Shown here piece by piece: positions 8,067-46,739 of a DNA stretch of 64,000 nucleotides. This DNA comes from Amycolatopsis aidingensis. GTDB taxonomy: Bacteria; Actinomycetota; Actinomycetes; Mycobacteriales; Pseudonocardiaceae. Under the pieces are notes generated by a model that made no database searches, was not told where the DNA came from, and saw nothing but the letters and a program-made list of their open reading frames with translations. Location: positions 4,934,001 through 4,998,000 of the forward strand of contig NZ_CP076538.1 in NCBI RefSeq assembly GCF_018885265.1. Direction: 5' to 3'. Position 1 is the stretch's first letter, and each line of letters begins with the position of its first letter. The translations under genes and the position numbers were made by a program.

Positions 8067-8067
8067 C
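8049..8067 (+). repeat. attL core (tRNA 3' end), left copy of a 19-bp direct repeat
   Basis: The bases cgagtcgcaccgggggcac (T arm through acceptor stem of the tRNA) recur exactly at 45356-45374. Both copies lie 60-100 bases upstream of a tyrosine integrase gene in the same orientation, as expected for att sites of tRNA-targeting integrative elements. The left copy restores the tRNA. Confidence 0.8.
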
Positions 8068-8128
8068 ACCGCCTGACCAGGCGTTACAACCAAACATAGA
8101 TCAACTCTGTTGATCATTAGGTGCGGCC

Positions 8129-17131: not shown

Positions 17132-19717
17132 TCAGTCGAGGTCGTTGCCGACCACCGCGGACCACTCCTCCGCCGGTGCGGGTCGATCCTTTTCGTCAAG
17201 CTGGGTAGGCATGACCTCGTCGAGACCCGCGTGTGCTCCTGCGGCTTCGGAACCAGCCATCACGGTCGCCTCCGACAGTCGCTTGTTGGCCCGGGTTCCG
17301 CTGCCGAGGTCGGTCACCGTGACGTGCACGGCCCCATTCGCGTCGATGTCGACGAGGACCTCGATCTGCGGTACGCCCTGGGGCACCGGAGGCAGGTCGG
17401 TGAGTTCGATGACGCCGACCTTCTTGTTGTCTTCGGCCAGGTCGTGGTCGCCCTGGAAGACCTGGACGGCCACGGTGGTCTGGTTGTCGTCGGCGGTGGT
17501 GAAGATCTCCGAGCGCTTGGTCGGGAGGGTGGTGTTGCGCTCGATGAGCCTGGTGAACACCCCGCCCTTGGTCGCGATGCCCAGCGACAGCGGGGTCACG
17601 TCGAGCGGCAAAACGTCCTTGACCTCGCCTTTGAGCACACCGCCTTGCAGCGCGGCGCCGACCGCGACCGCCGTGTACGGGTCAACCTCGGCCAGTGGGA
17701 TCGGGCTGTCGCCGAGGGACGTGAGCATCCGCGAGATGGCCGGGAGTGCCGCGGAGCCGCCCACGGCGGCGACGAGGTCCACCTCGTCAGCCGAGATGCC
17801 GACGTCCCGGAGGACGTCCATGACCTTCCGCCTGCACCGTTCGACGAGATCCGTGGTCCGGCGCTCGAACGCGATGCGGTCCAAGGTGACGTCTAAGTGC
17901 ACGGGTAGCCCGTCAGCCTGGGCCAGGTAGGGCAGGTGCACGCGAGCGGTGGTGGCGTGCGAGAGCTCGATCTTGGCCTTCTCTGCCTCCTTGCGCAGTC
18001 GCCACGCCGCAGTGGAGTCCGACCGCGGGTCGACACCGCTCGCCTCGATCGCGAGTTCGACCAGCCAGTCGAGCAGCCTCTGGTCCCAGTCCGACCCGCC
18101 GAGGCGCTCGTCGCCGCTGGTCGCGCGGATCTCAACGACCCCCTCGCCGAGCTCCACGACTGAGACGTCCAGTGTTCCGCCACCGAGGTCGAACACAAGG
18201 ATGGTCTGCTCCTTGTCGCCAAGTGCGGAACCCGCCGCCAACGCAGCCGCCGCAGGCTCGTTGATCATCCGCACGGCGTTGAGACCGGCGAGGCGCGCGG
18301 CGCGGCTCAAGGCGTCCCGCTCAGCGACGCCGTAGTGCGCGGGGATAGTGATGACCGCATCGCCCACCGGCTCTCCGAGGTACCTTTCCGCATCCCGCCT
18401 GAGCTGGTCGAGGATGAATGCCGCCACGTTCTCGGCACTGTACTCCGCGTCGGCGACGACAAAGGACCGGCCAGTCCCCAACGCCCGCTTGACCTCGGCG
18501 ATCGTGGTACTCGGGCGCAGGTGCGCCTGGTCCTTCGCGACGGCTCCGACATCCACCACCGATCCCTGGATGGTGACGACGCTGGGCGTGAGCTGCACGC
18601 CCAGGTGGTTCGACACGACCACGGGGCGGCCGTCGACCAGGACGGCAACCACCGAGTTCGTCGTGCCAAAGTCGATCCCGACGCTGTGCGACGTGGGCTC
18701 GACCGTCCGCTCGGCCGCCAGTCCGACCGCGATCGGGACGGCGCTGCCCACCTTCTCCCGCCACACGGCCAGGGCCCGCTCCGCCACAGCCTCGTCCGCG
18801 TCCCGTGTCAGCGGCACCAGCGCCTCTCGCGCAGCGTTGCCGGTCTGGACGTCGTCGAGGAGCCGCTCGAGCCCGAGTGTGGCCCCGAAGCGCTCCCAGG
18901 GCTCTCCGTTCACCACCGCGCGATGGATCGCGGCGGGTATCGGTGGCTCAGCCTCGTGGCCCTGATACAGAGCGCGGATGTTGCGCGCGAGGTAGATGGT
19001 CCCGCTGAGGCGGTCCATGGACAGCTCGGGCTTCTGATTCGCGACCTGTTGCGCCACGCGCATGCTGACGAAGCGGTAGAGGTCCTCCACGCTGACCTGA
19101 CCGTCGGAGTCCTGATCCGCCAGGCCGGTGCTCATCCCTTCGATCACCGCGGAGGTGAAGACCGAGGGCTCTCCTGCCGGCTTGCTCAGCACCGTGGACT
19201 CGTAGGCGTACTGCAGGGCCGAGCATGCTGTGATGACCGCTTTACCGTGGCCCTGGAAACGCTTGCCGACCACAGGCTCGTCCTGCGCGCCCCGTTGTCG
19301 GAGGCCACGCGTGTAGCCGCCACTGAAGCAGCAGTCCAGCAGCAGTACTGTCCTGCGGGCGCGGGACTCATCGATACAGTCGTTGACGAACTGGGCGGAG
19401 ATACCAGTGGCCGCGAGGTAGGCGGACTCGGTGTCCCGCGCGACGAAGTGCAGCTCACGAGTAGCGGAGACCTGCCCATGGCAGGACATGTGCAGCAGAA
19501 GCAGGTCGTCCTGCTCCGCGGTGGCAAAGAACTCCTCGATGTCCCTGCGCACGGTCCTGGCGTCCTTGTCGGGCACGACGGTGACATCGAACTCGCCGAT
19601 CGCCCGGGACCCGAGCACCTCGGCGAGCTGCTGGGCATCACCTGCCGCGCCCGGCAGCTCGGTCCAGCGCGGGTCGTCGTACACCTGGTTCGCTATGAGC
19701 AGCGCCCGCTTGCGCAA
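17132..19717 (-). CDS. Caspase-like protease fused to an Hsp70-type chaperone ATPase
   Basis: An 861-residue fusion (TTG start at 19717, GGGAG upstream). Residues 1-245 are a caspase/peptidase C14 domain: first strand KRALLIANQVY, catalytic His80 in HMSCHGQ, catalytic Cys130 in LLLDCCFSGG. Residues 201-212 (DQDSDGQVSVED) form an EF-hand-like calcium loop. After a helical linker, residues 345-835 are an Hsp70 ATPase with GIDFGTTNS, VFDLGGGTLDVS, AAVGGSAALP and a short beta substrate-binding part (DVTPLSLGIATKGG) but no long helical lid or EEVD tail. Actinobacterial caspases of this kind are named EACC1-associated and occur in predicted conflict systems; an EACC1-like gene is divergent at 19912. 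Likely role: Hsp70 senses stress or invader proteins and gates the protease. That mechanism is inference. Confidence 0.88.
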   Translation of the reverse strand: MRKRALLIANQVYDDPRWTELPGAAGDAQQLAEVLGSRAIGEFDVTVVPDKDARTVRRDIEEFFATAEQDDLLLLHMSCHGQVSATRELHFVARDTESAYLAATGISAQFVNDCIDESRARRTVLLLDCCFSGGYTRGLRQRGAQDEPVVGKRFQGHGKAVITACSALQYAYESTVLSKPAGEPSVFTSAVIEGMSTGLADQDSDGQVSVEDLYRFVSMRVAQQVANQKPELSMDRLSGTIYLARNIRALYQGHEAEPPIPAAIHRAVVNGEPWERFGATLGLERLLDDVQTGNAAREALVPLTRDADEAVAERALAVWREKVGSAVPIAVGLAAERTVEPTSHSVGIDFGTTNSVVAVLVDGRPVVVSNHLGVQLTPSVVTIQGSVVDVGAVAKDQAHLRPSTTIAEVKRALGTGRSFVVADAEYSAENVAAFILDQLRRDAERYLGEPVGDAVITIPAHYGVAERDALSRAARLAGLNAVRMINEPAAAALAAGSALGDKEQTILVFDLGGGTLDVSVVELGEGVVEIRATSGDERLGGSDWDQRLLDWLVELAIEASGVDPRSDSTAAWRLRKEAEKAKIELSHATTARVHLPYLAQADGLPVHLDVTLDRIAFERRTTDLVERCRRKVMDVLRDVGISADEVDLVAAVGGSAALPAISRMLTSLGDSPIPLAEVDPYTAVAVGAALQGGVLKGEVKDVLPLDVTPLSLGIATKGGVFTRLIERNTTLPTKRSEIFTTADDNQTTVAVQVFQGDHDLAEDNKKVGVIELTDLPPVPQGVPQIEVLVDIDANGAVHVTVTDLGSGTRANKRLSEATVMAGSEAAGAHAGLDEVMPTQLDEKDRPAPAEEWSAVVGNDLD

Positions 19718-26505: not shown

Positions 26506-26586
26506 CTTTCTCGGGGTTGGGGCCTGGATTCGTTCCTGGCCCCGCCCCGGGCTCCACGTTTGCTGATAGGAACGGGAGGTGCGGGG

Positions 26587-29544
26587 ATGCCCGAGGTGGG
26601 CTACCGGCATCGCGGTACGGGGGTGCTGCGTGCGTCGGCGCAGCAGGTCACACCGGCGTGGTGGCCGGCCCTGTCCGATGCGCGGGATTGCCGCGCGTGG
26701 CTGGGTGAGGTGTGGCCGACGGTCGCGGTGGCGGTGCGGCATGCGAGCCCGGTGCTGGCCTGCGGGGTCGAGGCGATCCTGGCCGGGCGTCCGCGGTCTG
26801 GGCGGAAGGTGCGTCGCGCGGCCCTGGCCGTGGTCCGGTACGTGTTGCGTTTCCAGCGTTCGACCCCGTTCGGTTTGTTCGCCGGAGTCGCCCCGCTCAC
26901 GGTCAGCAGCACCAGCAGTGTCCGGTTCGGCCAGCAGCATCGGCCGGTCGCGCGGCCGGATCACCGGTGGCTGCACCAGGTGATCAACCGGCTGAAAGCG
27001 TGCTCGGAGCTGCTGGCGCAGCTGGATGTGGTGTTCCACGACGCGGTTGAGCGGCAGGGCGAGCGGCTCGTGCTGGCGGGGCCGGAGGTGGTGAGTGTCC
27101 GCTGCACCCCGGCGGTGCGATTCGTGCGTCGCCACGCGGCCGGTCCGGTCCGCGTCGGCGTGTTGGCCGAGGCGCTGGCGGCGGCGTTCCCCGGTGCTGG
27201 CGATGCGGCTGTGCTGGTGCGGTCGTTGCTGGAGCACGGTTTCCTGGTCAGTAGTCTGCGCGCGCCGAGTACGGTCACCGACCCGCTGGGCTTCCTTACC
27301 GATTCCTTGCAGGCGCTCGACACCGAGGGCACCGCGGTGGCGTCGCTGGTGAACGAGCTGGGCGAGATCCGCCGCGCACTCGATGGGCACAACCAGCACC
27401 CGTGCGAGCAGGCGCGGACCGAGCTGGCCGCACGGATGCAGGCGATCGCGGGCGTGCCGCGAGGGGTGTTGTCAGTGGACCTGCGGCTGGATGGCCAGGT
27501 GCGCCTGCCAGAGCGGGTGGTACGGGAGATGGAACGGGCCGCCGACGTGCTGGCCCGGGTGGCGCGGGAACACACTGGAAGCCGGGCGTGGCGGGAGTAC
27601 TTCACCGCGTTCTGCGAACGGTTCGGCACCGGCACCTTGGTCCCGCTGCGGCTGCTGGTGGACCCGGCCTGCGGCGTGGGCTGGCCGCAGGGCTACCCCG
27701 CCGGGCCCGCGCAGGGCGGGCGGCATGTGTTCTCCGAGCGGGACCGCCTGTTGCTGTCCTGGGCCGCCGAGGCCACGGCCGGGGGCCGGCGCGAATTCGA
27801 GCTCGACGCCGGGGCGGTTGATGCGCTGGCCGCCGTGGGCGGCAACCCGGAGGTCGCGCCGCCGCATGTCGACCTGGGCGCGCGGATTCACGCCGCCAGC
27901 ACTGCCGCGCTGGATCGGGGCGAGTTCCGGCTGACCGTGGCACCGGGCCGGGCCGCGGGCACTTTCTCCTCCCGGTTCACCCCGCTGGTTCCCGAAGCCG
28001 GGCTGGAGGCGGTGTTCGCCGGGCTGCCCACCATCACCGAGGGGGCGGTTGCGGCGCAGGTGTCCTGCGCGCCCCTGTATCCCGGTGGGGAGAACGTCGC
28101 CCGCGTCCCCCGCTGTCTGCCCGAGATCGTCTCCGTCGGCGAACACGAGCCCGCCGCGATCGGGGTGGACGACCTGGCGATCACCGCAACCCGCCACCGG
28201 CTGCACCTGGTCAGCCTGTCGCGCCGCCGGGTGGTCGAGCCGCTGGTGCTGCACGCGCTCGCGCCGAAGCAGCAGCCGCCGCTGGCGCGCCTGCTGGGCG
28301 AGCTGCCCGGGGCGCTGGGCACGGGGTGGCTGGGGTTCGACTGGGGTCCGGTGGCCGGGTCGTTGCCGTTCCTGCCGCGGCTGCGCCACGGGCGGGTCAT
28401 CCTGGCTCCGGCGCAGTGGCGACTCACCCGGCACGAGCTGCCCGCCGACACGGCTGGTCGGGACCGGGCGCTCGCCCGGTGGCAGGCGGCATGGGGGTGT
28501 CCGGACCGGGTGCAGCTGCGGGACTTCGATCAGCAGTTGCCGCTGGACCTGGCCGTGCCCGCGCACCGGGAGGTGCTCGCCCACCACCTGCACGGATCTG
28601 AGGAGGCCGTGCTGATCGAGTCCCCCGAGCCCGGCGCCGACGGGTGGCTGGAGGGCCGTCCGCATCTGGTGGTGCTGCCCCTGGCCTCCCGCCGCAGGCC
28701 GGAGCCCGCGCCACGGGTCGAGTCGTTGCCCGTGCTGACCCACCAGCACGGCCACCCACCCGGCTCGGCCCACTCGGGGTGGCTGTACGCCAAGCTCTAT
28801 CTGCCCGCGCACCGTGTGGATCGGCTGCTGGTGCACCAGCTGCCGGACCTGCTGGTCGAGCTGGGTGAGCGGGACTGGTGGTTCGTGCGCTATCCCCGTA
28901 CCCGCGACGGCGACGAACCGGATCACCTGCGGCTGCGCATCCGCACCACCGGCGACGCCGACAAGGTGCTCGCCGCCCTCACCACCTGGGCCGACCGGCT
29001 CCGCGAGGACGGGCTGCTGAGCCGGGGGGCGTTGGACACCTACTACCCCGAGACCGGCCGCTACCGCGCCATCCACGATGCCGAGCGGCTGTTCGCCGCC
29101 GACTCCCGGCTGGTGCTCGCCTGCCTCACCCACCGCCCAGGTGGGGTGTCCCCGGTCGCGGCCACCGGTCTGTCCCTGTTCGAGCTGGCCGCCGCGTTCC
29201 TCGGCGACCGGCAGCACGCCGCCGACTGGCTACACCACCGGGCACCCCGCGCTGTGCCCGGCCGGGCCGCGGTCGACCAGGTCATCCGGCTCGCCCGCGG
29301 CTGGCCGGACACCGCCGAGCCAGCCGAGGTGGCAGCCGCACACCGGGATCACGGCGAGGCGGTGCGCCGCTACCGGCACGCCCTGCCCGCCGACACCGAT
29401 CTCGACGCCTGTCTCCATGCGCTGCTGCACATGCACCACAACCGCGCCCTCGGCGTCGATCCAGAACTCGAGGCGGTGTGCCTGCGGCTGGCCCGGCAGG
29501 CCGCCACCACCTGGCACACCACCCACCCGGGGCGGTCGTCGTGA
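26587..29544 (+). CDS. lanB: Class I lanthipeptide dehydratase (LanB, full length)
   Basis: A 985-residue LanB, start ATG 26587 behind GGGAGGT. The N-terminal glutamylation domain carries the conserved RYVLRFQRSTPFGLFAGVAPL block (residues about 85-110) and later QVSCAPLYPGGENVARVPR. The C-terminal glutamate-elimination (SpaB_C/TIGR03891-like) domain starts near WLYAKLYLPAHRVDRLL and has RYPRTRDGDEPDHLRLRIR and YYPETGRYRAI. It uses glutamyl-tRNA to dehydrate Ser/Thr of the precursor. Full length suggests an active enzyme. Its stop overlaps the GTG of lanC. Confidence 0.93.
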   Translation: MPEVGYRHRGTGVLRASAQQVTPAWWPALSDARDCRAWLGEVWPTVAVAVRHASPVLACGVEAILAGRPRSGRKVRRAALAVVRYVLRFQRSTPFGLFAGVAPLTVSSTSSVRFGQQHRPVARPDHRWLHQVINRLKACSELLAQLDVVFHDAVERQGERLVLAGPEVVSVRCTPAVRFVRRHAAGPVRVGVLAEALAAAFPGAGDAAVLVRSLLEHGFLVSSLRAPSTVTDPLGFLTDSLQALDTEGTAVASLVNELGEIRRALDGHNQHPCEQARTELAARMQAIAGVPRGVLSVDLRLDGQVRLPERVVREMERAADVLARVAREHTGSRAWREYFTAFCERFGTGTLVPLRLLVDPACGVGWPQGYPAGPAQGGRHVFSERDRLLLSWAAEATAGGRREFELDAGAVDALAAVGGNPEVAPPHVDLGARIHAASTAALDRGEFRLTVAPGRAAGTFSSRFTPLVPEAGLEAVFAGLPTITEGAVAAQVSCAPLYPGGENVARVPRCLPEIVSVGEHEPAAIGVDDLAITATRHRLHLVSLSRRRVVEPLVLHALAPKQQPPLARLLGELPGALGTGWLGFDWGPVAGSLPFLPRLRHGRVILAPAQWRLTRHELPADTAGRDRALARWQAAWGCPDRVQLRDFDQQLPLDLAVPAHREVLAHHLHGSEEAVLIESPEPGADGWLEGRPHLVVLPLASRRRPEPAPRVESLPVLTHQHGHPPGSAHSGWLYAKLYLPAHRVDRLLVHQLPDLLVELGERDWWFVRYPRTRDGDEPDHLRLRIRTTGDADKVLAALTTWADRLREDGLLSRGALDTYYPETGRYRAIHDAERLFAADSRLVLACLTHRPGGVSPVAATGLSLFELAAAFLGDRQHAADWLHHRAPRAVPGRAAVDQVIRLARGWPDTAEPAEVAAAHRDHGEAVRRYRHALPADTDLDACLHALLHMHHNRALGVDPELEAVCLRLARQAATTWHTTHPGRSS

Positions 29545-30644
29545 CCGCACAGTCGCTGGCCGACGGGCCCGCCGGGCAGGCGCTGCTGGCGCTGGAACGC
29601 GACCAGGACGCCCGGGACTGGCTGGCCGCGATGGTGGCCGAGCCCGTGCGCGCCCACCCCGACGAGGTCAGCCTGTTCGAGGGAGCCCCCGCGGTCGCCT
29701 TCACCCTCGCCGCCACCCGCATGGCCGACACCCAGGACGTGCTGGACGGGCACGTCCGGTGGATCACCCGGGCGCGGTTGAAGGCCGCGCACCACCGCCT
29801 CGCCGCCGGGGCGCTAGCCGACACGCGCGAGTTCGACCTCATCTCCGGCCTCACCGGGCTCGGCGCCTACCTCCTGCGCCGCGGCGGAAACCACGAGCTG
29901 CTGCGGGACGTGCTGCGCTACCTGGTGCGGCTGACCCACCCCCACCGCGGCGGACTGCCCGGCTGGTGGGCACGCAGCGGCCCCACCGGTCCCGGCCCCG
30001 GGTGGCACGGCGGGCACGGCAACCCCGGCATGGCGCACGGCATCGCCGGGCCACTCGCGCTGCTGGCGCTCGCCATGCTGCGCGGGATCGTCGTATCCGG
30101 GCAGGCCGCCGCCATCGACCGCGTCGGCACCTGGCTGGACCGCTGGCGTTGCGGCACCCCACCCAGGGTGTGGTGGCCCGAGGCGATCACCCGCGCCGAG
30201 CACGACCGCGGCGAGGCCTTCCGACCCGGTCCGGGCCGGCCGAGCTGGTGCTACGGCACCCCCGGCATCACCCGCGCCCTGCACCTGGCCGGCCGCGCCC
30301 TCGACGACCCCGCACGGCAACACCTAGCTGAGGAGATCCTGGCGCTGTGCGTCACCGACGAAGCACAGCTGGCCCAGCTTGCGGACGTGTCGCTGTGCCA
30401 CGGGTGGGCCGGCCTGCTGCACACTGCCTGGCGCGCCAGCCACCACAGCGACCGCATCGCCACCGCTCTGCCCCGTCTGCTCCACGGACTCACCGACCGC
30501 CTGGCCCGCCGGCCACCGGCCGGGCAGGGACTGCTCACCGGCACCGCCGGGGCCCTGCTGGCCCAGCACGCCGCCCGCACCAACACGCCACCGGTCACCC
30601 GGTGGGATGCCTGCCTGCTGCTCAACGACGAAGGGACACGATGA
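29541..30644 (+). CDS. lanC: Lanthipeptide cyclase (LanC)
   Basis: A 367-residue LanC-like protein; GTG at 29541 overlaps the lanB stop (GTGA). The zinc site is visible: SWCYGTPG (Cys), SLCHGWAG (Cys, His), with the GNPGMAHGIAG loop carrying the catalytic His. It should add Cys thiols to the dehydro residues made by LanB. ATGA overlap with the methyltransferase gene keeps the three enzymes coupled. Confidence 0.92.
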   Translation: MTAQSLADGPAGQALLALERDQDARDWLAAMVAEPVRAHPDEVSLFEGAPAVAFTLAATRMADTQDVLDGHVRWITRARLKAAHHRLAAGALADTREFDLISGLTGLGAYLLRRGGNHELLRDVLRYLVRLTHPHRGGLPGWWARSGPTGPGPGWHGGHGNPGMAHGIAGPLALLALAMLRGIVVSGQAAAIDRVGTWLDRWRCGTPPRVWWPEAITRAEHDRGEAFRPGPGRPSWCYGTPGITRALHLAGRALDDPARQHLAEEILALCVTDEAQLAQLADVSLCHGWAGLLHTAWRASHHSDRIATALPRLLHGLTDRLARRPPAGQGLLTGTAGALLAQHAARTNTPPVTRWDACLLLNDEGTR

Positions 30645-31885
30645 ACCACGCCACCACCAGCTCACCCGCCGACCTGCGCGAGACCATGATCACCAGCGTC
30701 AAGCAGGCCGGGTACGCCCAGCGCCCCGAGGTCGAACGGGCACTGCGCCGGGTCCCGCGGCACGAGTTCGTGCCCGAGGCCGACCTGGATACGGCCTACG
30801 ACCCCTGGCAAGCCGTCATCACCCACCGCTTCACCGACGGCACCGCTCTCTCCTGCGCCAGCGCGCCCTCCGTGGTCGCCATGATGCTCGACCAGCTCGC
30901 CGTCGAACCCGGCAACGCCGTGCTGGAGATCGGGGCCGGGACCGGCTACAACGCCAGCCTCCTCGCCGAACTCACCAACCAGGACACCCACGTGGTCACC
31001 ATCGACCTCGACGGCGGCGTCACCACCCACGCCACCCGCAACCTGGCCGCGACCGGCTACCACGGTGTCCGCGTCGTCACCGGCGACGGCGCGCTCGGCG
31101 TCCCCGAACACGGCCCCTACGACCGGATCATCGCCACCGTCTCCCCCTGGGACATCCCTACAGCCTGGTGGCAACAACTCACCCCCGGCGCCCGTCTCGT
31201 AGTCCCGCTGCGGTGGCGCGGGCAAACCCGCAGCGTCGCCTTCGCCCACCACAACGGGCGGCTGGTGGCCGACTCCATCGAACTGTGCGGCTTCGTCCCC
31301 CTCGTCACCGACGACGACGGCGAACTCTCCGCCCCCATCACCGCCGATGGCACCATTCACCTGCACTGGGACCGCGACCAACCGGTCGACCCCACGGTCC
31401 TGCACGGAGTCCTCGACCGGCCGAGCAACACCGCCTGGTCCGGCGTCAGCATCGCCGGAGACGAACCCCACGACGGCATCTGGCTACGCCTCACTGTCAC
31501 CGACCTCCGCACCTGCCGACTCAACGCCCCCGCCGATACCCCGCCCGAGATCTGCGCCCCCATCTCGCCGTTGCGCGCGCCCGCCCTCGTCGACGGAACC
31601 TCCCTGGCCTACCTCACCCTCCGCCGACACCAAGGCAGCGGACCCAGCCGCTGGGAACTCGGCGCCATCGGGCACGGACCAGCCGCCACCGAACTGGCCA
31701 CCCACCTCTGCGACGAACTCCGCGCCTGGTCCATCGATCGAGACCGGCGCAAACCCAACCTGACCGCCTACCCCGCCGACACCCCCGAGCATGAGCTGAC
31801 CGGCACCATCATCGACAAGGCCCACAGCAAGCTTGTCCTCACCTACGACACCGACGAACCACACGAGCACCGGTACCGTGCCTGA
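30641..31885 (+). CDS. PCMT-like methyltransferase, FxLD system
   Basis: A 414-residue enzyme. Residues 1-215 are a protein-L-isoaspartate O-methyltransferase domain: PRHEFVPEADLDTAYDP, the SAM loop VLEIGAGTGYNASLL, DGALGVPEHGPYDRIIATVSPW. The roughly 190-residue C-terminal extension (DGTSLAYLTLRR, GAIGHGPAATELATHLCDELRAW) is typical of the methyltransferase found only in FxLD lanthipeptide loci. Related enzymes methylate an Asp of the core so that it cyclises to a succinimide and opens to isoaspartate; the Asp35-Gly36 of this precursor is the likely substrate. Substrate assignment is inference. Confidence 0.88.
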   Translation: MNHATTSSPADLRETMITSVKQAGYAQRPEVERALRRVPRHEFVPEADLDTAYDPWQAVITHRFTDGTALSCASAPSVVAMMLDQLAVEPGNAVLEIGAGTGYNASLLAELTNQDTHVVTIDLDGGVTTHATRNLAATGYHGVRVVTGDGALGVPEHGPYDRIIATVSPWDIPTAWWQQLTPGARLVVPLRWRGQTRSVAFAHHNGRLVADSIELCGFVPLVTDDDGELSAPITADGTIHLHWDRDQPVDPTVLHGVLDRPSNTAWSGVSIAGDEPHDGIWLRLTVTDLRTCRLNAPADTPPEICAPISPLRAPALVDGTSLAYLTLRRHQGSGPSRWELGAIGHGPAATELATHLCDELRAWSIDRDRRKPNLTAYPADTPEHELTGTIIDKAHSKLVLTYDTDEPHEHRYRA

Positions 31886-35676: not shown

Positions 35677-38600
35677 CTAGGGGCCCTCAGGGCTGGAGTC
35701 CGTAGTGTTGTCGTGCTTCGGTTTACTGTTATCCTTGCCCGCGAATCCCTCCGGCGGGGTGATGTCGAGGATGACTGGTGTAATGTGGAAGCCGTTCTTC
35801 AACTCTGCGTCGGCCTGCTCTTTGAGAGTAGCTCGGAGCGCGTCCTTGTCCGGGTGGAGATTCTTGGGCCAGCCACGTCCGCTAGGGCGACGGTCGGGGT
35901 GGATCCAGTAGATGAGCAGGATGCCGTGGCGTCTGCCTTCCGGGATGAGGTAACGGTCGATCAGTTGTGCCCGCATAGCTGTCAGGACTTCTGAGTTGTT
36001 CGCCAGTTTCGCCTCGAACAGCACCCGGGCTGTGCCCTTGGTCTCGGTGAACGTTGTGGCAACGCCGTCGATCCGAGTTCCTACACCTTTGGGCTTCACG
36101 CGTTTGGCTTGGACCTCCCGGTCCACGACGACGCCCTCAGAGAGGCGGTCTTTGAGGCGCCGCTTCACCCAGTCGGTGATGCTGTCCTCCGAATGGGGGA
36201 TGTTGCCGCCCCAGATCTCCTGGAACGCAGTGCTGTGGGTGAGGTGGTGCTGCAGGTTGTCGAGTTGGTGCAGAATGACTGTGAGTAAGTCAGCGTCATC
36301 GCGGACCAGTCGGGCGTCGGCGGAGCGTAGAAGGTCCAGCAGGGTCTGCGGGCTGATGGCCTTGACGGCGAGGTCGGCTTGGCGTGCGCGGGCGGTGGCC
36401 AGGTATTGCCCCAGGATTTGCTGTTCTATGTCTTCACGGTGTGCCAGCAGAGTGAACAGGTCATCCACCCGACCAGCCGAAGCCAGTTGCTGCAGAAGAT
36501 TCGAGCGTAGTCTGCGGGCCGTGTCCTCTGGCTCCACAGCGCCACTTCTCATCGGCGGGTCGTTGTGGTACGGGAACGTGTCAAGCAGAAGCCGGGCGGC
36601 CGAGAGCACGTGGTCGTGGTCGAGCCCAGCGGAGTTGATCCTGCTGACGACTGCCGCGACCTGTGCGGATGTGTGATCCGCGCTTGTGAGTTCGTCGAGG
36701 GCGGAGTTCGGATCCAGTCCTGGGAGCAGTTCCTTCGCGCGAGCGGCCAGTGGAGAGTCTGGCTCGTTGCGCAGTCGGTGGCACAGGTCGAGAGCGGTCT
36801 CGGTCGCACTTGCTCGGACGACTAGGGACAGGAGTTCGTCCGCAGTCGGGCTGGTCTCGGACACGTCGAGCAGCCAGGCGACCATCCGGTCAGCGAACTC
36901 CAGCACCACGTGCTGGTAGAACCCGTACGCGGACAGGTGTTCTCCTGCGGCGTGCAGCACCTCAAGGTGGTTTATCGCGTGGTCCGCCAGCACCGGCCGC
37001 AGCTCGGTCGGGATGGCGTCAAGCAGGAGCCCGCGCAGGTCGTCAGGATCGTCGCCTGCGAAGACGGGCACGGCAACGATGGCGCTTATCCAGCGGCGCC
37101 AGACATCCAGCTGAACATCGGAGAGCTTGTTTGGGTAGTGCCAGACAAGCGTGGTGAGTAGATACACGCCGGCCCAGTCCGGCATGACCTGATCGCTGGT
37201 CCACGAGATCAGAGGCGTCCACGTGGCTGGGTTCGGCGTGTGCGCTTCGAGGTAGCGGATACCGGTATCGACTACTTTTGCGGCGTCCTCGGGCTGTAGC
37301 TCGTTCCAACCCGGCCATGCGGTCAGGTCGTGCCCCCCTGACGGTGCGGCGTCGCCTTGTCTGGCTTGCTGGACGAGTACGGGTATCTGCCACCAGGAGC
37401 CGGGATCCACGTCGACGTGCGTCAGGGCGTTGTTGAGGGCAAGCTTCGCCTGCTCCTGGGCCTGGGTTCGCGCCTCAGCGGCCTTCTGCATAGCGACAGC
37501 GTGCTTACGTTGGAACTGGGCGATTTCGCTCGACATGTCCACGCTGCCGCGCAAAGAGTGGGTGGCGTCGTAGGCAGGGTGGCTAGGCTGGAGGCTCAAC
37601 AAACGATCAGCGAGCGCCGCGGTCATGTCAACGATCTGGATGCGTGCCAGGCATTCGGCTAGTGACGCGGCAGTAGACGGCGGGCAGGTATCGACCTCGT
37701 CGAGGAGCCATTCCACGTCGTGCGACCCCAACAAGCCCATCAGAATGATCGCCTGCCAGCTGTCCTCCTGGATGGCCGCCATCTCCAGGACGAGGCTGTG
37801 CCGACGATCCGCTTCTCTTTCGATCCACGGCAAGGTGGTGCGTCCTTCCCGGGACTGGAGGCGCCAGCTTGCGGAGACAAGCATCCGCGCGAGCATTTGT
37901 CGGACAGCGGTGTCGTCGCTGTGCTCCCACGCTTGCCGCAGCAGTCCTTCGACAAACCGATCGTAGCGGCGGGCAATCGACTTGTCGTCGAGTTGCCTCA
38001 ACCAGTCGAGTGCGAGGGGAAGGTCGGTCGGGGGAATGCGATCAGCAAGCTCGCCGAGCGAACGGCTGTAGTAATAGTCGTAGCCCACGGGATAGGAGGA
38101 TCGTGGTCGGAGGGCCGCCAGCAATGTCCGCGTGGACATGAGCTTCGGGTACAGGACGTCGATGACGGCCGCTCGCACTTGATGGTCAGGGTCCTCGTCC
38201 TGGTCCAGGATGCTCGCAAGTCCGGTGATGATGTCGTTGTCGCCCAGCTCGCCGACAGCGATCACAGTCGCACGACGTGCGTAGGGGTACCACTGCGTGT
38301 CGACCGCAGCCTCCACCAACGCCGCGGCAAGCCCGGTGCACTGGCCAGCGGCGGCTAGGCGGGCGATCCACCAGAGCTGTTGAGACCGCTGCAAAGCTTT
38401 CAAGCTCTGGCTCAGCTCTGCCTCAAGGGAGGTGTGGACGAGCAGTGCGGGATCGACCCTCCAGTCCGTGTGGATCTTTCCGCTGGCCGCGTGGTCAAGC
38501 AGGGCGGCGACCACAGCCGCACGTATCGCATCCGAGGGCAGTTCCGTCGCCGCACCGGACGATGCGAACATCAGAGCGTTGGCGTGGACCAGGCTCTCGA

Positions 38601-39714
38601 CCAACCCGGGTTGAAGCGCTCCGAGCCAGGCGGCCACTCCAAGCCGACTAGTGGGGAGCAGTCCGTTGGAGTGCACGCCCAGCAGGGCGGGAACCTGGCC
38701 AGGTTGCAGCTTCCGCTCGACCAGGTATGCGGCGGTCGAGTATTCGACGTAGCTCTGGTGTCGGAACACGACTGCGCCTGCCGGACCAGTGTCGAACAGC
38801 GCAGTATCGAGTACATCGCGGTAGTCGGCGGGATCGATCGCTCTGGCCGTTTCAACGGGCTCAGGTTCGGACGGCAACTGATCGACGGTCAGCGTGCTGG
38901 GAGCGCCTGAGGTTGAGACTGCGAATGCCTGGGTACCGCTGAACGTCTCGAACGCCGCCAGCCGCATGGCGATGCGCATCGCCCGGTCAGCAGGAAGATC
39001 GCGTAGACGCTGGGAGTTGGTCTCCTGAAGCAGGTGCGCGACCTCGTACTCCATGGCCTCGACCGCGGTGTCGGGCAGGACCCCGCGGCCATGCCAGAAC
39101 CGTGCCACCGCGATCAACTGGCTCAGGCAGCCCGACAGCCTGCCCAACCCCGCCGCTGCCGCAGCCTCGATGAACGCGGCCCCGTCGAAGTCAGCAGCAC
39201 CCACAGCTTCCCCGACTACCGCCGCAGCCGTGACCCGGTCCAGGGGAAGCAGCTTCCACGTCTTGAAGTCCGGCAAGGACGTGGCGAAGACCCGGTCCCA
39301 CGCCGCTGCCCGGCAAGATAGACGCCAGTACCCATCGGCAGCCCCAGGCCGACCTAGTTCACGGGCCAACCAGCGCAGGATGAACTGATCGCTGGCAACG
39401 GCCTCATCCAAGGCGTCGAAGTACAAAGTCTTCTTCGTGCCCGCGGCCCCTGAAATCAGGTTCTCAAGCTTGTCACGCGTCTCAAGCGGAGTCTCGACGT
39501 ACTCGGCATCCGGCTCGACCGCGACGAGGGCGGTCGTCGTCGTGGTCTTGCCCGCCCCACCTGCTGCCAAAAGGGCAAAGTTGCGGGAGAGCGTCGGCAG
39601 GAGCGAGACCGGCACCACACCGCTCTTGCTATCAAGCTTCAAGAAGCCATCACTGTCGACGGGGACGGGCTCCTCAGGAGACGCGGCATAGCGGTGAAGG
39701 CCGTACGTTGACAC
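35677..39714 (-). CDS. Giant STAND-type NTPase with C-terminal PD-(D/E)XK nuclease (Avs-like defence protein)
   Basis: A 1345-residue protein, GTG start at 39714. Walker A is AAGGAGKTTT (residues 51-60); Walker B is TLYFDALDEA (96-105), close to the hhhhD-x-x-D-E form of NACHT/STAND ATPases. A winged-helix/sensor region follows (RHQSYVEYSTAAYLVERKLQPGQVPALLG), then about 750 residues of helical repeats. Near the C terminus GTRIDG (Asp1216) and VLFEAKLAN (Glu1234, Lys1236) give a D-x17-E-x-K nuclease core. Antiviral STAND proteins (Avs) use helical repeats to bind phage proteins and then activate an effector nuclease, but in described Avs the nuclease is usually N-terminal; here it is C-terminal. 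Divergent from the HEPN-like gene. Defence role is inference. Confidence 0.75.
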   Translation of the reverse strand: MSTYGLHRYAASPEEPVPVDSDGFLKLDSKSGVVPVSLLPTLSRNFALLAAGGAGKTTTTTALVAVEPDAEYVETPLETRDKLENLISGAAGTKKTLYFDALDEAVASDQFILRWLARELGRPGAADGYWRLSCRAAAWDRVFATSLPDFKTWKLLPLDRVTAAAVVGEAVGAADFDGAAFIEAAAAAGLGRLSGCLSQLIAVARFWHGRGVLPDTAVEAMEYEVAHLLQETNSQRLRDLPADRAMRIAMRLAAFETFSGTQAFAVSTSGAPSTLTVDQLPSEPEPVETARAIDPADYRDVLDTALFDTGPAGAVVFRHQSYVEYSTAAYLVERKLQPGQVPALLGVHSNGLLPTSRLGVAAWLGALQPGLVESLVHANALMFASSGAATELPSDAIRAAVVAALLDHAASGKIHTDWRVDPALLVHTSLEAELSQSLKALQRSQQLWWIARLAAAGQCTGLAAALVEAAVDTQWYPYARRATVIAVGELGDNDIITGLASILDQDEDPDHQVRAAVIDVLYPKLMSTRTLLAALRPRSSYPVGYDYYYSRSLGELADRIPPTDLPLALDWLRQLDDKSIARRYDRFVEGLLRQAWEHSDDTAVRQMLARMLVSASWRLQSREGRTTLPWIEREADRRHSLVLEMAAIQEDSWQAIILMGLLGSHDVEWLLDEVDTCPPSTAASLAECLARIQIVDMTAALADRLLSLQPSHPAYDATHSLRGSVDMSSEIAQFQRKHAVAMQKAAEARTQAQEQAKLALNNALTHVDVDPGSWWQIPVLVQQARQGDAAPSGGHDLTAWPGWNELQPEDAAKVVDTGIRYLEAHTPNPATWTPLISWTSDQVMPDWAGVYLLTTLVWHYPNKLSDVQLDVWRRWISAIVAVPVFAGDDPDDLRGLLLDAIPTELRPVLADHAINHLEVLHAAGEHLSAYGFYQHVVLEFADRMVAWLLDVSETSPTADELLSLVVRASATETALDLCHRLRNEPDSPLAARAKELLPGLDPNSALDELTSADHTSAQVAAVVSRINSAGLDHDHVLSAARLLLDTFPYHNDPPMRSGAVEPEDTARRLRSNLLQQLASAGRVDDLFTLLAHREDIEQQILGQYLATARARQADLAVKAISPQTLLDLLRSADARLVRDDADLLTVILHQLDNLQHHLTHSTAFQEIWGGNIPHSEDSITDWVKRRLKDRLSEGVVVDREVQAKRVKPKGVGTRIDGVATTFTETKGTARVLFEAKLANNSEVLTAMRAQLIDRYLIPEGRRHGILLIYWIHPDRRPSGRGWPKNLHPDKDALRATLKEQADAELKNGFHITPVILDITPPEGFAGKDNSKPKHDNTTDSSPEGP

Positions 39715-40023
39715 CTCACCACCTCACCACACCGATGTTGCCTTGCGAACACCGCCACGCCGACGGCTGCCATTCGTGTCGCCATCGTTGGCAGACACGT
39801 CCGGACGTCAACCTCCACCGTGCCGACACACCGTCTGCCGCCAACTCGGGTTGAGCTGGTGGTCCCGTCGATTCGGCTCTGACCATCGCCACGAGCAACA
39901 GAGCGCGTGCGGCTCCGATACGGAGCACTGGGAGGACCGGGCGACGGACTCAGTCTCGGCCGCCAGCACCTCGCGGGCTCGAATCACCTCATAGGTGGGG
40001 CTGACACGTGGGACCCTGACGTC
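39715..40023 (+). promoter_or_regulatory. Divergent region of STAND and HEPN-like genes
   Basis: About 310 bases between divergent genes, expected to hold both promoters. I see no strong palindrome, tRNA or small gene. Frames here are shadows or unsupported. Confidence 0.4.
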
Positions 40024-41750
40024 ATGCTCCAGGTCATCACGGGGATGTACTTCCAGGATGTACGGCTCAACGAGACCGAACATCGCCGGACCCTGTATAC
40101 GAACGCGTCCTTCTGAGGCGTGACCATGTCGACATACCTATCGGTCATTTGACGCCGGCAACAGAGTGGTCCACCGTCAACACGATTCTCGCGTACTTCA
40201 CCGAACGTCTTGAAGCGGTCCTACCTGACGGCAGCGACGACTTCATGATCTCAACCGGCGGTGATGCTATCGCAGACGATCTCGCCGTCGTGCTTTCGTT
40301 TGCGCTCGGTGCTACGTTCACTCCGAACCGAGAGAAGGCCGACCGACTGATCCGTGCACCGTCGGGGTCACTCCACAGTCCAGCCCCAGCCGACATTCTT
40401 CCGCGCACCTTCACCCCGCAGGTCGTACTCAACGATGGTGATCTTGATGATCTGCGCGCATTTATGATCGAGTTGCTGGCACTTAACCGAGGCGTCTTCG
40501 AACGGACGATGAGGGCGATGCGGCGCATCGTTACGGCGAGCGAGCGCGTCGCCGAGGATCCGACGCTTTCCTACACTGACTACGTCGCCGCCCTTGAGTC
40601 ACTCTCGACGGACGTCAAGGTGCCCGCTCCGACTTGGAACCGTCTCGACCCCCGTAAGCGTGGGATTCTCGACCGAGCCTTGGACACGTTAGGGGCTGGC
40701 GACGCCGACCGTGTTCGCACAGCGATCCTTGAAGCCGAGCGGGCAGGCATCAAGTACAGGTACGTCGAGTTCGTACTCAGCCATGTTCGCCCATCGTTCT
40801 TCCGCGAGGAAGCGATCGGCTTGAACCGTCCAGTGCGGCAAGCGTCCCTTCGACGGGTGGTGTCTAACGCCTACGACGCACGTTCGAAGAATCTCCATGA
40901 ACTCGGGGACCTTGCCATCGGGAAATGGCTTCTTGTCGGTGGCGCGCACACTGTCACCCCGCCCGGCGAAACGCTGATGCTCACGCACGCGGAACTCAAC
41001 AGGCTAGCCCGGCACGTGGTCCGTACCTACGTCCAGCGCGGATCTACCGAACTCGACCGAGACTACAAATGGAGAGACCATCTTCCCAACGTCATCAAGG
41101 CGCAACTGGCGCCGGAGTTCTATCTCGGGACCGCCGAGGCCATGCGTCCGGCCGATGCGGCAACCCGAGCCGGTGAGTTTTTTGACCACCTGATAGAAGC
41201 GCTGTCCGGACGCGTCAAGCTCAAGATCGACATGCGCCCTGCTCTCAGCCGTATTGAGGAATTGCTCGTCACCCAGCGGTCGCCCAACGTCCGAGAGCCG
41301 ATGCTTGCTATCTACCTGCTTTGGCACCGCCTACTGCCCCCGGAGGTTCATCAGCCAGCACCCGAGAGGGTCATGACGGCCGCGCTGGAAGAGTTACAAC
41401 GCCCGAGCCTATACTCGTTCACGGCAAGTGTGCTCCTCGACGTGATCCCGCCTTGGTCCGTAGACGAGGTATGCGAGCTAGCGGAGCAGCGGCACGTTGA
41501 GCTGCAAAAACGTCGCCATCTCGAGCTTCCCTCACGCCTTGACTCCGCGCTCTGGATCTACGCCGCAAAGCGCCTGTGGTTCGATGGACCACAGGACCTG
41601 GCGTCCGCGGCGGTCAGAAGGGCAGTGGAGTGCTCTCCCGGCCATGAAGACCTTCTCGCGCTCGAGCACGAAGTTGCCGCTGGCCGTGAGATCGATTTCA
41701 ACGTCCGAGCCTTCCTGCTCGGTGCAACCCCAGCGACAGACGAGCACTGA
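40024..41750 (+). pseudogene. HEPN-like defence-associated protein, one-base frameshift near the start
   Basis: The main frame (40149 on, 533 residues) has no convincing start, but the preceding frame from ATG 40024 reads MLQVITGMYFQDVRLNETEHRRTLYTN and joins smoothly to VLLRRDHVDIPIGHLTPATEWS if one base is restored at about 40105 (aacgcgtcc, expected aacgcggtcc). The joined product is about 575 residues. The helical core holds NAYDARSKNLHELGDLA, an R-x4-H motif as in ApeA-like HEPN RNases. The rest is helical with no other motif. Divergent from the STAND nuclease gene, so it may be its partner or a second effector. Confidence 0.55.
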
Positions 41751-42107
41751 TGTCGCGGCAAACGCACTGTGGCCGACCGGTGCCAGCATACGACGGCGTC
41801 CGCCTCGACGAGGCCCACACCAGCACCGACGACGCCATCACGGCCACTCGTCGGCACCACTCGCCTCCCGTGGCGACTGGTCAAACCGAACCCGAACGGA
41901 TCGGCCAGCTCGCGCCGCAAACCCTGCACAACCCAACAAGTGCAGTCGTTCCGCGAGCAGGAGGCCCACGCCCAAGGCTTGAATACCCCTGGCTGGCATC
42001 CCGCGCACGACACCGCCGGCGACAACCGGCCTCGCCGCCACGGCCGACCTCGCCCTCAGCCCAGATCGGGTCCAAGCGGACGAGGCCGGCTGTGGCAGCA
42101 CGCTCCC
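41751..42107 (+). other. Convergent intergenic region, no gene seen
   Basis: About 360 bases between the ends of the HEPN-like and HNH genes. Several frames are open in this GC-rich DNA but none has a ribosome site with a family-like product. No hairpin of note was seen. Confidence 0.35.
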
Positions 42108-42845
42108 CTACATGAAGCCGCTTGCGCGAGTTACTGCGCGGTCAATGCTGGCCGCCACGTCCTCCAAACCTGCCACTCTGTTGGCGGCATCGGCCAAAGT
42201 GGAAACACTGTCCTCAAGGTGCGCCAGATCACGCGCGGCCGAAGACAACACCGAGGCGTTGTCTTCGAGGTGCCCGAGGTCACGCGCGGCGGTGCTGAGC
42301 ATGAAGACAGCGTCCGGGTCAAGGATGGACCCGGCTTTACGCAATGCCTTGATCTCGTCCGACAGTTCCCGTACGAGGGCCGCAGCTTCCGCATCGGTCC
42401 GTTCGAGGCGCGCCAGCGTGGTACGGATGTCGTGGTTCTGATCATCGATCGCCGAAGTGATCCGCTCGACCAAACCGTCCTCGGTGACGTCGCGGAGTCC
42501 CCGCAGTTCCTCGTAGCGGCCTTCCTCACGATCCAGCTTCCAGGCTTCGAGAACTTCGATCGTGAATCGTTCGGCGGCTCCCGGTTCGTCAACGGTGTCG
42601 TGGTGAGGCTTGCAGAGGAACAGCAGATTCTCGAATGCGTCAACTCGATCGCGGGATATGCCCGGGATGTAGCGTTCTGCTGCCTGTTCGTCCGATCGTA
42701 TATGCGCGATCTGCAGGTTTAGGCGATACCTGTTTTCAACTTTCATGAGAAGGGGCTCGGTGCAGCCCGGACCCCAATAACACTTGCCTCGGCCGAACAG
42801 AATCAGCGCGGCACGGTCGCCGCGGGTGTAGTTGCGCGGTGGCAC
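42108..42845 (-). CDS. HNH endonuclease with C-terminal helical repeats
   Basis: Start set at GTG 42845 behind AGGAGGAGG, giving 245 residues. The N-terminal half is an HNH nuclease: GKCYWGPGCTEPL (Cys pair), LQIAHIRSDEQAAERY (His), FENLLFLCKPHHDTVDE (Asn, Cys, His-His). The C-terminal 80 residues are three short helical repeats built on AARDLGHLED, AARDLAHLED and AANRVAGLED, likely a coiled coil or ligand-binding bundle. This HNH type appears as the nuclease of CBASS-like and other abortive systems, although no SAVED domain follows. It belongs with the STAND/HEPN block. Confidence 0.8.
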   Translation of the reverse strand: MPPRNYTRGDRAALILFGRGKCYWGPGCTEPLLMKVENRYRLNLQIAHIRSDEQAAERYIPGISRDRVDAFENLLFLCKPHHDTVDEPGAAERFTIEVLEAWKLDREEGRYEELRGLRDVTEDGLVERITSAIDDQNHDIRTTLARLERTDAEAAALVRELSDEIKALRKAGSILDPDAVFMLSTAARDLGHLEDNASVLSSAARDLAHLEDSVSTLADAANRVAGLEDVAASIDRAVTRASGFM

Positions 42846-43103
42846 GGTTCCTCCTCCTGAACGTACGGTCACGGACGTGATACACCCGGACACCGACAGT
42901 TCTGGTCACCGAGGAGTGCGTCACCCGTTTATGCCACCCGTTTGGCGCAACTTTGTGTAGGCGATAGCCCTCCTTCCGCGCCGCTCACCGCAGTCGACGC
43001 AGACGCCATGCTCCGCTGCGTGACTGGGTGAGTACCGGGACGGCATACGAGCCAACTCCATCGATCTTGCACGCTCACATCCCCAACGATGCAGACCAGC
43101 ACT

Positions 43104-43257
43104 TCACGCTCCGACTGACTTCCCGCGTCCCATAGCGGAGCTGCCAGGCTGACTTGTCCTGATCATCGACACCAACAACCGGGACCGCGCGGCACCGATC
43201 CGAAACTGTCGACGCAATGTCTCGGCAGAGATCGGTCTGTCGTTTCCGGCTGAATAC
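43104..43257 (-). pseudogene. C-terminal fragment of DUF2637 protein (3' side of IS30 insertion)
   Basis: The minus strand left of the IS reads YSAGNDRPISAETLRRQFRIGAARSRLLVSMIR and ends GRGKSVGA stop at 43104. The RPISAETLR..GAARSR helix-turn-helix is the usual C terminus of DUF2637 proteins, so this is the severed end of the gene whose front half is at 44562-45215. Confidence 0.6.
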
Positions 43258-44561
43258 TGACCCCCTGGTTCCGCTTGGGTTCCAGTGCTTGTCGCAACAC
43301 TCCTGGTAGAAGAGGGCGTGCTGATGGCGAGGCGTGGAGCGAAGCGGCGGCTGGATCTTGAGTCGCGGTACTGGCAGTTGATCCTGTCGGGGGTAGGGAC
43401 GGTCGAGGCGTGCCAGATCATCGGGATCGGCCGTAAGACCGGCTACCGCTGGCGGGCGGAGAACGGCGGGCTCCCACCTGCGTTGGTCGCCGAGGAGGCC
43501 CGTTCGAGCCGATATCTGTCCCGGTCCGAACGGCAGCGGATCGCCACCCTGCGGGCCCAGAAACTGTCGATCCGGGAGATCGCGCGGCGGATTTGCCGTC
43601 ACGCTTCCACGGTCAGCCGGGAGCTGCGCCGCAACGTCCGGCCGCATGATCAAGGGCGCTACGACGCTGACCTGGCGCATTCCCGGGCCCGGCAACGTGC
43701 GCGTCGGCCGCGCCAGGCTCGGTTGATCCAGGATTCGCAGCTGCGGGCGGCCGTGCAGGCGAAGCTTGAGCTGGAGTGGAAGTCCCGAGCAGATCGCCAA
43801 CTATCTGCGGTCCGCTTTCCCTGATCACGCCAGCTGGCACGTGTGCCACGAAACGATCTACCAAGCGCTCTACCACGGTGGCAAGGGCGGTCTGAGCCGC
43901 CGGCTCACGCAGCGTCTGCGTACCGGCCGGGCGTTGCGCAAGCGTCGCCGCCGCGCTGATCAGCGACGGAGCCGGTTCGTCGCGCCCACTCTGCTGATCG
44001 AGCACCGCCCGGCGGCGGCCCACGAGCGGACCCGCGTTGGTGATTGGGAAGGTGACCTCATCGTGGGCCGCGGCAACCAGTCGGCCATCGCCACCCTTGT
44101 CGACCGCTCCAGCCGCCTCCTGCGTCTGGTTCACCTGCCCGGCAACCGCGGCGCCGACACGGTCCGCGACGCCCTGATCGCTGTCCTGGGCGCCCTTCCC
44201 GAAGCAGCGCGACTGACGTTGACCTGGGACCAAGGATCCGAAATGGCCTACCACGAACAGATCGCACCGCTGCTGCGTGAAGGTGTGTTCTTCGCGCACC
44301 CAGGAAGTCCATGGCAGCGCGGCACGAACGAGAACACGAATGGCTTGCTGCGCCAGTACTTTCCCAAACGCACCGACCTCGCGATCCATACGCCCGAGCA
44401 CCTCGGCATGGTCGAGCACAAGCTCAACCACCGGCCACGCAAGACACTCGGATGGCGGACACCCGCCGAGGTCTTCCACAACGCCGTGGCATCATAGACC
44501 CCGTCACCGTTGCGACGACCGCTCGAATTCGCCCTGGAACCCAAGCGGAACAGATGGGTCA
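43258..44561 (+). mobile_element. IS30-family insertion sequence
   Basis: About 1304 bases bounded by inverted repeats of 28 bases with four mismatches (43258-43285 and 44534-44561; shared part gttccgcttgggttccag and tgaccc at the tips). It contains one transposase gene, itself frameshifted. It splits a DUF2637 gene. No convincing target-site duplication is visible. Confidence 0.8.
43324..44497 (+). pseudogene. IS30-family transposase, frameshifted
   Basis: First frame from ATG 43324: helix-turn-helix LNLSREEIARRI-like part (KLSIREIARRICRHASTVSRELRRN). After AKLELEW at about 43783 an extra A forces a switch to the frame reading SPEQIANYLRSAFPD, which runs to 44497 and carries the DDE core: VGDWEGDLIVGRGN (Asp), LTWDQGSEMAYHE (Asp), FAHPGSPWQRGTNENTNGLLRQYFPK (Glu). 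Family firm; the frameshift suggests the copy is inactive or the read has an extra base. Confidence 0.8.
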
Positions 44562-45215
44562 CCATTCGACCGACGTTGACATCGGTCGACGGTGCTCCAT
44601 CCAATGGCGCGCATCCGCCCGACGTGCCCGCTCCAACAAACCATCCTCGACGTGAAGCGATCCGCTCTTGGCCCGCTCTGACTCCGGCCGTTGGGCTCGT
44701 GTCGCACCGTCGCCGAGGGCGGTCGTTTCCGAACGTGACACCTCAGACGCTGCCACGCTGCTGGCCCGAACGGTGGCTGACACGGCATCCAACAGCCCCG
44801 GCCCTACCTCGGCCCAACCAATCAGCAACAGCGGACCCACGGCATCGAAAGCGGCCCTGCCGAACTCACCGGCGATCAACGGGTCAGCCACATTCAACGC
44901 CAACGCCACCACACTGGCGAACACGAGCAACCGCCGAGCAGGCCGAGTCTGTTCGGCAGTAGCCCCGTGCAGCACCAAGTGACGGATACCAAGCAGCAGG
45001 CCAACGATCGACAGATCGACCGCCGGCGCGACCAATGGAGCAACCCACGGCGACACGCCCAAGCGCAGCGCCAAGCTCAGCACATTGCCGAACCCGAACA
45101 TGAAGGTCAACGCGACCACGACACCAGCAATCACCGTAACGCATCGCAACGTCGCATCACGCTCCGTAGAATGGTGTGGCGTGCTAGCAGCCTCCACGGG
45201 CATCCCGGAGGTCAT
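44562..45215 (-). pseudogene. DUF2637 membrane protein, front half cut by IS30
   Basis: The ATG at 45215 begins a protein with four transmembrane helices (VTVIAGVVVALTFMFGFGNVLSLAL, WVAPLVAPAVDLSIVGLLLGI, LLVFASVVALALNVADPLI, AAFDAVGPLLLIGWAEVGPGLL), the DUF2637 pattern found in conjugative actinomycete elements (SpdB-like spread proteins). Shortly after HWMEHRRPMSTSVE the frame enters the IS inverted repeat and stops at 44559. The C-terminal helix-turn-helix is left behind at 43104-43257. It is the only conjugation-related gene still recognisable in the island. Confidence 0.7.
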
Positions 45216-45471: not shown

Positions 45472-46739
45472 ATGCCTCGTCCGCCGTTGCCCCTCGGCAC
45501 GTGGGGTGAGATCCGTACGCTGCAGGTCCCGGCCGTGCTCGACGACACCGGGGCGCTGGTGAGAAGGGCCCGGTGGCGGGCCTTCACCCAGTACCGTGGC
45601 CGCGATGGCCGTACCCGCCAGGTCGAGCGAAGCGGGACCAGCCGTACCGCGGCCCTCCGCCGTCTCCGTGAACACCTGCGGTCCCTGACCGCCGCCAGCG
45701 GTAGTCCAGAACTGTCGGCCTCGTCTCGCCTCGCCGAGGCTGCCGACCTCTGGGTCGAACGGGTGATCAGCCGGCGGGAACCCACCACCTACGATCGCTA
45801 CCGGTGCCGCCTGGACAACCACATCCTGCCCACTCTCGGGGACCTGCTCCTGCGCGAGTGCACGATCGGCCGTCTCGAGCACTACTTCGACAACCTGGCC
45901 CTTACCCTGGCTCCGAACACCCTCCGGGCATCCGCAGCGTGCTCTCCGGGATCCTGCAGCTCGCCGTCCGCCGCCAAGCCCTGGACCACAACCCCGTCCG
46001 GAACATCGAGCCCATCGAAGGCGGCAACACCCGCCCCAAGCTCACCTTCACCGCCACCGACCTGAGCGACTTCCTCACCCGGCTCGACGCCGATCCCGGC
46101 GCCCGCCGAGCCGACCTTCCCGACCTCGTTCGCTTCCTGTTCGGTACCGGCGTCCGGATCAGCGAGGCCCTCGCGCTGCGCTGGTGCGACCTCAACCTCA
46201 CCACCATCACGGTCACCCGCGACGGTCAGGCCATCCCGCCGTGGTCGGTGTGGATCAGCGCCCACCTCGTCGTCGTCACCGGCAGAGGAATCCTCCGCCG
46301 CCCAGGCCAGGCCAACCGGACCAAGAAATCCGACCGGATCCTCGGCCTGCCCTCATACCTCACCACCGTGCTCCTGGCCCGCCACCCCGCCGACGCACGT
46401 CCCGACGATCCCGTCTTCCCTTCCGCCACGCTCGGCTGGCGCCACCCCTGCAACGTGCAGCGCTCCGTCCGTCGCCTACGCGAACGTGCCGGGTATCCCA
46501 CCTTCACCACCCACGTCGGTCGGCGCACCGTCGCAACCGTTCTCGACCACGCGGGGCAAACCGCACGCCAGATCGCCGACCAACTCGGCCACGCCAAGGT
46601 CTCCACCACCCAGAACGACTACCTCGGCCGTCACCTGGCCAACCCCCTCGCCCCCGCACTTCTCGACCACCCCACCGCACCCACGCCGGTATCCCTCGGC
46701 GCCACCGCCGCCCCGGCGCACACCGTGAACCCGTACTGA
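45472..46739 (+). pseudogene. Second tyrosine integrase, frameshifted
   Basis: GGGGGAGG precedes ATG 45472. The first frame contains the arm-binding and core-binding domains (YRGRDGRTRQVERSGTSRTAALRRLREHL, PTLGDLLLRECTIGRLEHYFDNLALTLAPNTLR). After about 45925 (gggc, expected ggggc) the family sequence continues in the -1 frame (IRSVLSGILQLAVRRQALDHNPV) with Arg in GTGVRISEALALRW, H-x-x-R in THVGRRT, LGHAKVSTTQNDY (Tyr). Sequence is quite unlike the first integrase, so it is from a different element. Confidence 0.75.

Follow-up and report, generated by a model that had tools for sequence, protein, structure and literature searches.

According to the part of PMC12931631 available to us, STAND receptors usually carry an N-terminal effector, a central nucleoside triphosphatase (NTPase) and a C-terminal sensor, and the Avs (AVAST) proteins Avs1-4 combine such an NTPase switch with a nuclease effector. 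The NCBIfam collection holds two further models of interest here, EruA (NF058535, NACHT domain-containing antiphage protein) and HyoA (NF058534). Here we describe three adjacent genes, A, B and C, in a 64-kb stretch of the Amycolatopsis aidingensis genome (bases 4934001-4998000 of a single-contig genome of 7.66 Mb), which we call the window. A preliminary description had put them forward as a candidate defence block, made of a giant NTPase-nuclease (A), an HEPN-like protein (B) and an HNH nuclease (C). The three open reading frames (ORFs) and their motifs are real, A and B being divergent and B and C convergent (Table 1).

As judged by profile comparison, A is a remote actinomycete branch of the EruA-type family. 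The EruA model matches A at an E-value of 4.5e-58, with residues 41-1318 of A aligned to model positions 22-1317 of 1318, but the score of 197.4 bits falls far short of the curated cut-off of 1000; A is accordingly a remote relative rather than an EruA equivalog. The best EruA match among the proteins we fetched, L124, likewise stays below the cut-off (774 bits); it is laid out as A is, with a P-loop near the N-terminus and a D...ExK domain at the C-terminus, and five further EruA-like proteins carry the invariant residues. When a profile of the A family was compared with these six EruA-like proteins, 1291 columns aligned (hhalign, E-value 3e-106), a nearly end-to-end homology that includes both the NTPase and the C-terminal nuclease. 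From its model and the EruA-like proteins we infer that EruA itself probably has the NTPase first and the nuclease last. In a quickly made tree, in which L124 and L128 were flagged as long branches, A sits inside a 27-row actinomycete clade with 100% support in the Shimodaira-Hasegawa-like approximate likelihood ratio test (SH-aLRT), apart from the EruA-like rows. HyoA also matches A, at an E-value of 2.3e-37 and in two stretches (the best at A residues 180-575), but with 128 bits against a cut-off of 1200. No protein exceeded the EruA cut-off in 396 genomes of the phylum (six matches at E ≤ 1e-25, that of the own genome included) or in 397 genomes of the order (120 with a match at E ≤ 0.001, often just a short one to the P-loop). 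A literature search by name found no paper on an antiphage EruA; the EruA of PMC12839154, a SlyA-type regulator of E. coli, is a different protein.

Residue conservation was studied by aligning A with 25 relatives, leaving out three loci that hold A fragments only (L099, L102 and L103) and keeping one sequence, L094, that lacks the C-terminus. Walker A, with the K56 singled out in the preliminary description, and Walker B are present in 26/26 sequences, as expected of a STAND/NACHT NTPase, and further downstream lies an FxHQxYxEYxxAxYL motif that we take to resemble the winged-helix motif of NACHT proteins. At the other end, E1176, D1177, D1181, D1216, E1234, K1236 and Q1250 are invariant in all 25 sequences that reach the region. 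An AlphaFold2 (AF2) model of residues 1060-1345 shows a nuclease-like fold (predicted local distance difference test score, pLDDT, of 85.4), and its structural matches (VIA-align) have restriction enzymes on top, BamHI first. The C-terminal PD-(D/E)XK nuclease proposed earlier is thus upheld by a D...(D/E)xK motif on a mixed alpha/beta core, and conservation supports the view that A is catalytically competent at both sites. The long helical repeats proposed for the middle of A fare less well: there are weak HEAT/TPR similarities, and the start of the 1060-1345 model is helical, but the similarities are below the Pfam cut-offs. The Pfam scan of A gave nothing else, and the PADLOC scan of A gave no match.

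These motifs and this architecture are far above chance, because relatives of near full length, at about 31-46% identity, exist across many actinomycete genera. An alignment-based scan of a genome-contig collection recovered 25 A loci, all in actinobacterial records and with Amycolatopsis, Saccharothrix, Lentzea, Micromonospora, Nocardia, Mycobacterium and Kribbella among the genera, whereas a single-sequence scan of the same collection with A recovered no relative. Six of the 150 genomes searched match A, the own genome included: G048 and G065 have an almost complete copy, G039 has a broken one, G033 a fragment and G148 the C-terminal part only. The genome searches score few candidates per genome, and all such counts are lower bounds. 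Three Rhodococcus plasmids also carry relatives, at 31-32% identity. Full-length relatives were seen in Actinomycetota only, and no A relative was found in the phage and viral-contig collections. Proteins from outside this phylum, on a Bradyrhizobium plasmid (L131) and a Dolichospermum plasmid (L132), match A in the nuclease region only. The nuclease module also seems to have been re-used in L045 (9964-12549, minus strand), where an 862-aa protein carries it behind an N-terminus that we read as ParB-like.

A seems to stand alone, with no conserved partner gene in the loci examined, and this bears directly on the proposal that A, B and C form a single multi-effector system of NTPase-nuclease, HEPN RNase and HNH nuclease. 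Besides their adjacency in the window, the proposal can draw on two genomes: in G039, of the same genus, 6.3 kb separate a broken A from a C relative of 66-67% identity, with order and orientation kept, and G065 has both A and C, 25 kb apart. In G039, though, ORFs that we read as transposase-like are located in between. At a distance of about 2 kb from this broken A there is also an ORF read as Cas3-like. Setting the window aside, we searched the DNA of 37 A-family loci with tblastn, with flanks of at most about 9-10 kb (25 from the genome-contig scan, two plasmids and two sets of five; the three fragment-only loci are among them). B was found in 0/37 and C in 1/37 (L039, 6.3 kb from a broken A), so the recurrence of the trio in other genomes, which the preliminary description had itself named as a check, is absent from these loci. 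Occurrence in the 150 genomes is also very different, A being present in 6, B in 3 (in two of them as a fragment or a weak match) and C in 26. If the own genome is set aside, two genomes have both A and C, against 0.84 expected (P = 0.20), and no accession is shared among the plasmid records with A (8), B (7) and C (11). As the window's B is, moreover, frameshifted, we consider a three-gene system very improbable indeed; most likely, B and C are genes in their own right that share with A a stretch rich in mobile elements. Other partners did not emerge either. Among 552 ORFs called by codon-position GC in 28 of the 37 loci, the commonest neighbours of A, an ABC-transporter ATPase and transposases, recur in at most four other loci, and no gene was seen travelling with A in the loci examined. 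A defence scan of 92 of 156 called neighbour genes of A relatives, restricted to the best 25 of 171 and 187 families and run without control islands, found GajA and GajB (Gabija), JetA (Wadjet), LmuA (Lamassu) and an argonaute-associated restriction endonuclease once each, two type III methyltransferases and one BPTD_3080 restriction enzyme, together with transposases, integrases and ordinary genes.

We think it probable that A is a single-gene anti-phage receptor of the EruA type, made of an NTPase switch, a helical sensor and a C-terminal nuclease effector. Sensing, oligomerisation, DNA as the substrate and the anti-phage effect are proposed by analogy: the helical middle would bind a phage component, ATP would drive oligomerisation, and the clustered C-terminal nuclease domains would cut DNA and so halt the phage or kill the cell. 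What has been computed is that A is homologous to almost all of the EruA model, that both catalytic sites are conserved, that the C-terminal part has a nuclease-like fold, that the loci examined show no conserved partner and that single defence genes lie near some relatives. The earlier reading of A as a defence protein is therefore kept as probable, with its STAND/NACHT motifs borne out. The same part types, a STAND-type NTPase, a long middle and a nuclease, could also suggest an Avs protein with its effector relocated to the opposite end, since the order available to us in part from PMC12931631 puts the effector of Avs at the N-terminus. This is quite unlikely: A has its P-loop at residues 50-57, its nearly full-length homology is to EruA, and PADLOC finds no match (Avs being known here by description). 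The roughly 48 residues before the P-loop of A, and at most about 80 in six aligned relatives, are too few for an N-terminal nuclease domain. The nuclease-last layout had thus been correctly described, but it is not a new Avs-like design, as it runs through the EruA-type family. DS-8 of the DefensePredictor paper (PMC13092281) is also a NACHT-containing defence protein, but its other domain is a metallophosphatase. A different alternative is that A serves multicellular actinomycetes as a STAND regulator or conflict protein with a target other than phages, such as a switch for kin recognition or cell death. The restriction of full-length relatives to Actinomycetota and the presence of a caspase-HSP70 fusion in the same window would fit this idea, and the anti-phage role of A is putative; the patchy presence (6/150), the plasmid copies, the single defence genes near relatives and the homology to EruA speak against it, and we hold it to be unlikely, if the most serious of these competitors.

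Gene B is the less expected find of the locus. It belongs, from its alignments, to an HEPN-type family that has no name as yet and occurs on plasmids and viral contigs, and whose members start with MLQxxTGK and share E150, an R-x4-H motif and a TPR-like tail. The R-x4-H noticed in the preliminary description, which we take to be the signature of HEPN RNases and which B fits, is invariant: E150, R245, S246 and H250 are kept in 18/18 distinct rows, the window's included. The copy in the window is apparently frameshifted near its N-terminus. The missing piece is encoded just upstream in another frame and ends in a stop, so this B is either damaged or misassembled; the equivalent lies in a single frame in L104 and L047, and the aligned homologues begin with MLQ (VLQ in L104). 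The AF2 model of L104 (pLDDT 72.2) has a helical core, and its structural matches, many of them TPR proteins, are mainly to residues 349-557, the TPR-like tail, away from the predicted HEPN core. The family is found on plasmids of Actinomycetota, Pseudomonadota, Bacillota and, weakly, a cyanobacterium (four plasmid-borne relatives were aligned and six plasmid regions read), and also on viral contigs, with 15 relatives, the best 79% identical. No convincing match was obtained for the family in Pfam or PHROGs, nor for B itself in PADLOC or NCBIfam.

Gene C is an HNH nuclease, as had been proposed. PADLOC models of HNH effectors match it at E-values down to 1.1e-15, its head matches PDB 9om4 (E-value 2.4e-7), and Pfam HNH_2 reaches 17.3 bits, under its cut-off of 21. 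The closest known proteins are the SAVED-HNH effectors of CBASS and PDC-M68A: residues 23-157 match PDC-M68A at 3.7e-16 and SAVED_HNH at 2.8e-15, but the match is limited to the N-terminal part, and we read the rest as coiled-coil-like. The gene likely starts at a GTG at 42845, because the L039 homologue begins, with MPPRNYT, at that point; the end given earlier for the block is this same position. Relatives of C also occur on Streptomyces plasmids, and the two plasmid regions that were read have no shared partner.

Table 1. Features of genes A, B and C (window coordinates; residue numbers refer to the encoded protein)
Feature	Position	Strand	Remark
Gene A, predicted NACHT/STAND-type NTPase with C-terminal PD-(D/E)XK nuclease, 1345 aa	35677..39714	-	remote EruA relative
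Walker A of A, residues 50-57, AAGGAGKT, K56	39544..39567	-	G53, G55, K56 in 26/26 aligned sequences
Walker B of A, residues 95-104, KTLYFDALDE	39403..39432	-	D100, D103 in 26/26
FxHQxYxEYxxAxYL motif of A, residues 314-334	38713..38775	-	F317 in 26/26, H319 in 25/26
Helical middle of A, about residues 400-1165, putative sensor	36220..38517	-	weak HEAT/TPR matches
PD-(D/E)XK nuclease domain of A, about residues 1170-1323	35746..36207	-	AF2 model and structural matches
E1234-A-K1236 catalytic motif of A	36007..36015	-	25/25 sequences reaching the region, A included
D1216 of A, partner of E1234-A-K1236	36067-36069	-	
Displaced N-terminal piece of B, begins MLQVITG, ends in stop	40024..40116	+	in another frame
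Gene B, open part of HEPN-type protein, 533 aa	40149..41750	+	frameshifted
R-x4-H motif of B, R245-H250	40881..40898	+	18/18 distinct rows, window's included
Gene C, HNH endonuclease, putative coiled-coil tail (own reading)	42108..42893	-	likely start 42845

To the right of the three genes lie an element that we assign to the IS30 type (43247-44572), with 42-nt inverted repeats that are 79% complementary and a transposase in two overlapping frames, a tyrosine recombinase (45472-46739) whose SAM-like and catalytic parts are in different frames, and an IS110 fragment. Third-position GC is 0.76 in A, 0.70 in B and 0.69 in C, against 0.72-0.90 in the other genes called at 29-52 kb; as this comparison list had been pre-filtered at >0.70, the values are only a hint of a separate arrival. 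Elsewhere in the window, a tRNA-Leu(caa) directly followed by a tyrosine integrase (7993-9424) is a likely integration site of a mobile element, and the caspase (Peptidase_C14)-HSP70 fusion at 17135-19717 (minus strand) is a possible immunity or cell-death protein. A lantibiotic dehydratase, a LanC-like ORF (our reading) and a PCMT-type methyltransferase at 26560-31885 (plus strand) form a probable class I lanthipeptide cluster. The PADLOC scan of 42 other genes of the window gave matches to mad3, mad2, mad8 and AriA.

It is conceivable, and we offer it tentatively, that two undescribed defence families adjoin here, the A clade being a separate class of STAND proteins with reversed polarity and the B family a single-gene HEPN system of mobile elements. 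If the polarity is indeed reversed, the sensor would lie between the NTPase and the nuclease, so that assembly would have to gather C-terminal nucleases, unlike in Avs. A dedicated screen of the B family, for which the libraries tried gave no convincing match, would be well worth making. As for A, it adds a divergent actinomycete branch to an antiphage NACHT family that was named only recently, and it shows how widely the layout with the effector last has been retained. This allows a clear test of how a STAND receptor drives a nuclease located at the end opposite to that of Avs.
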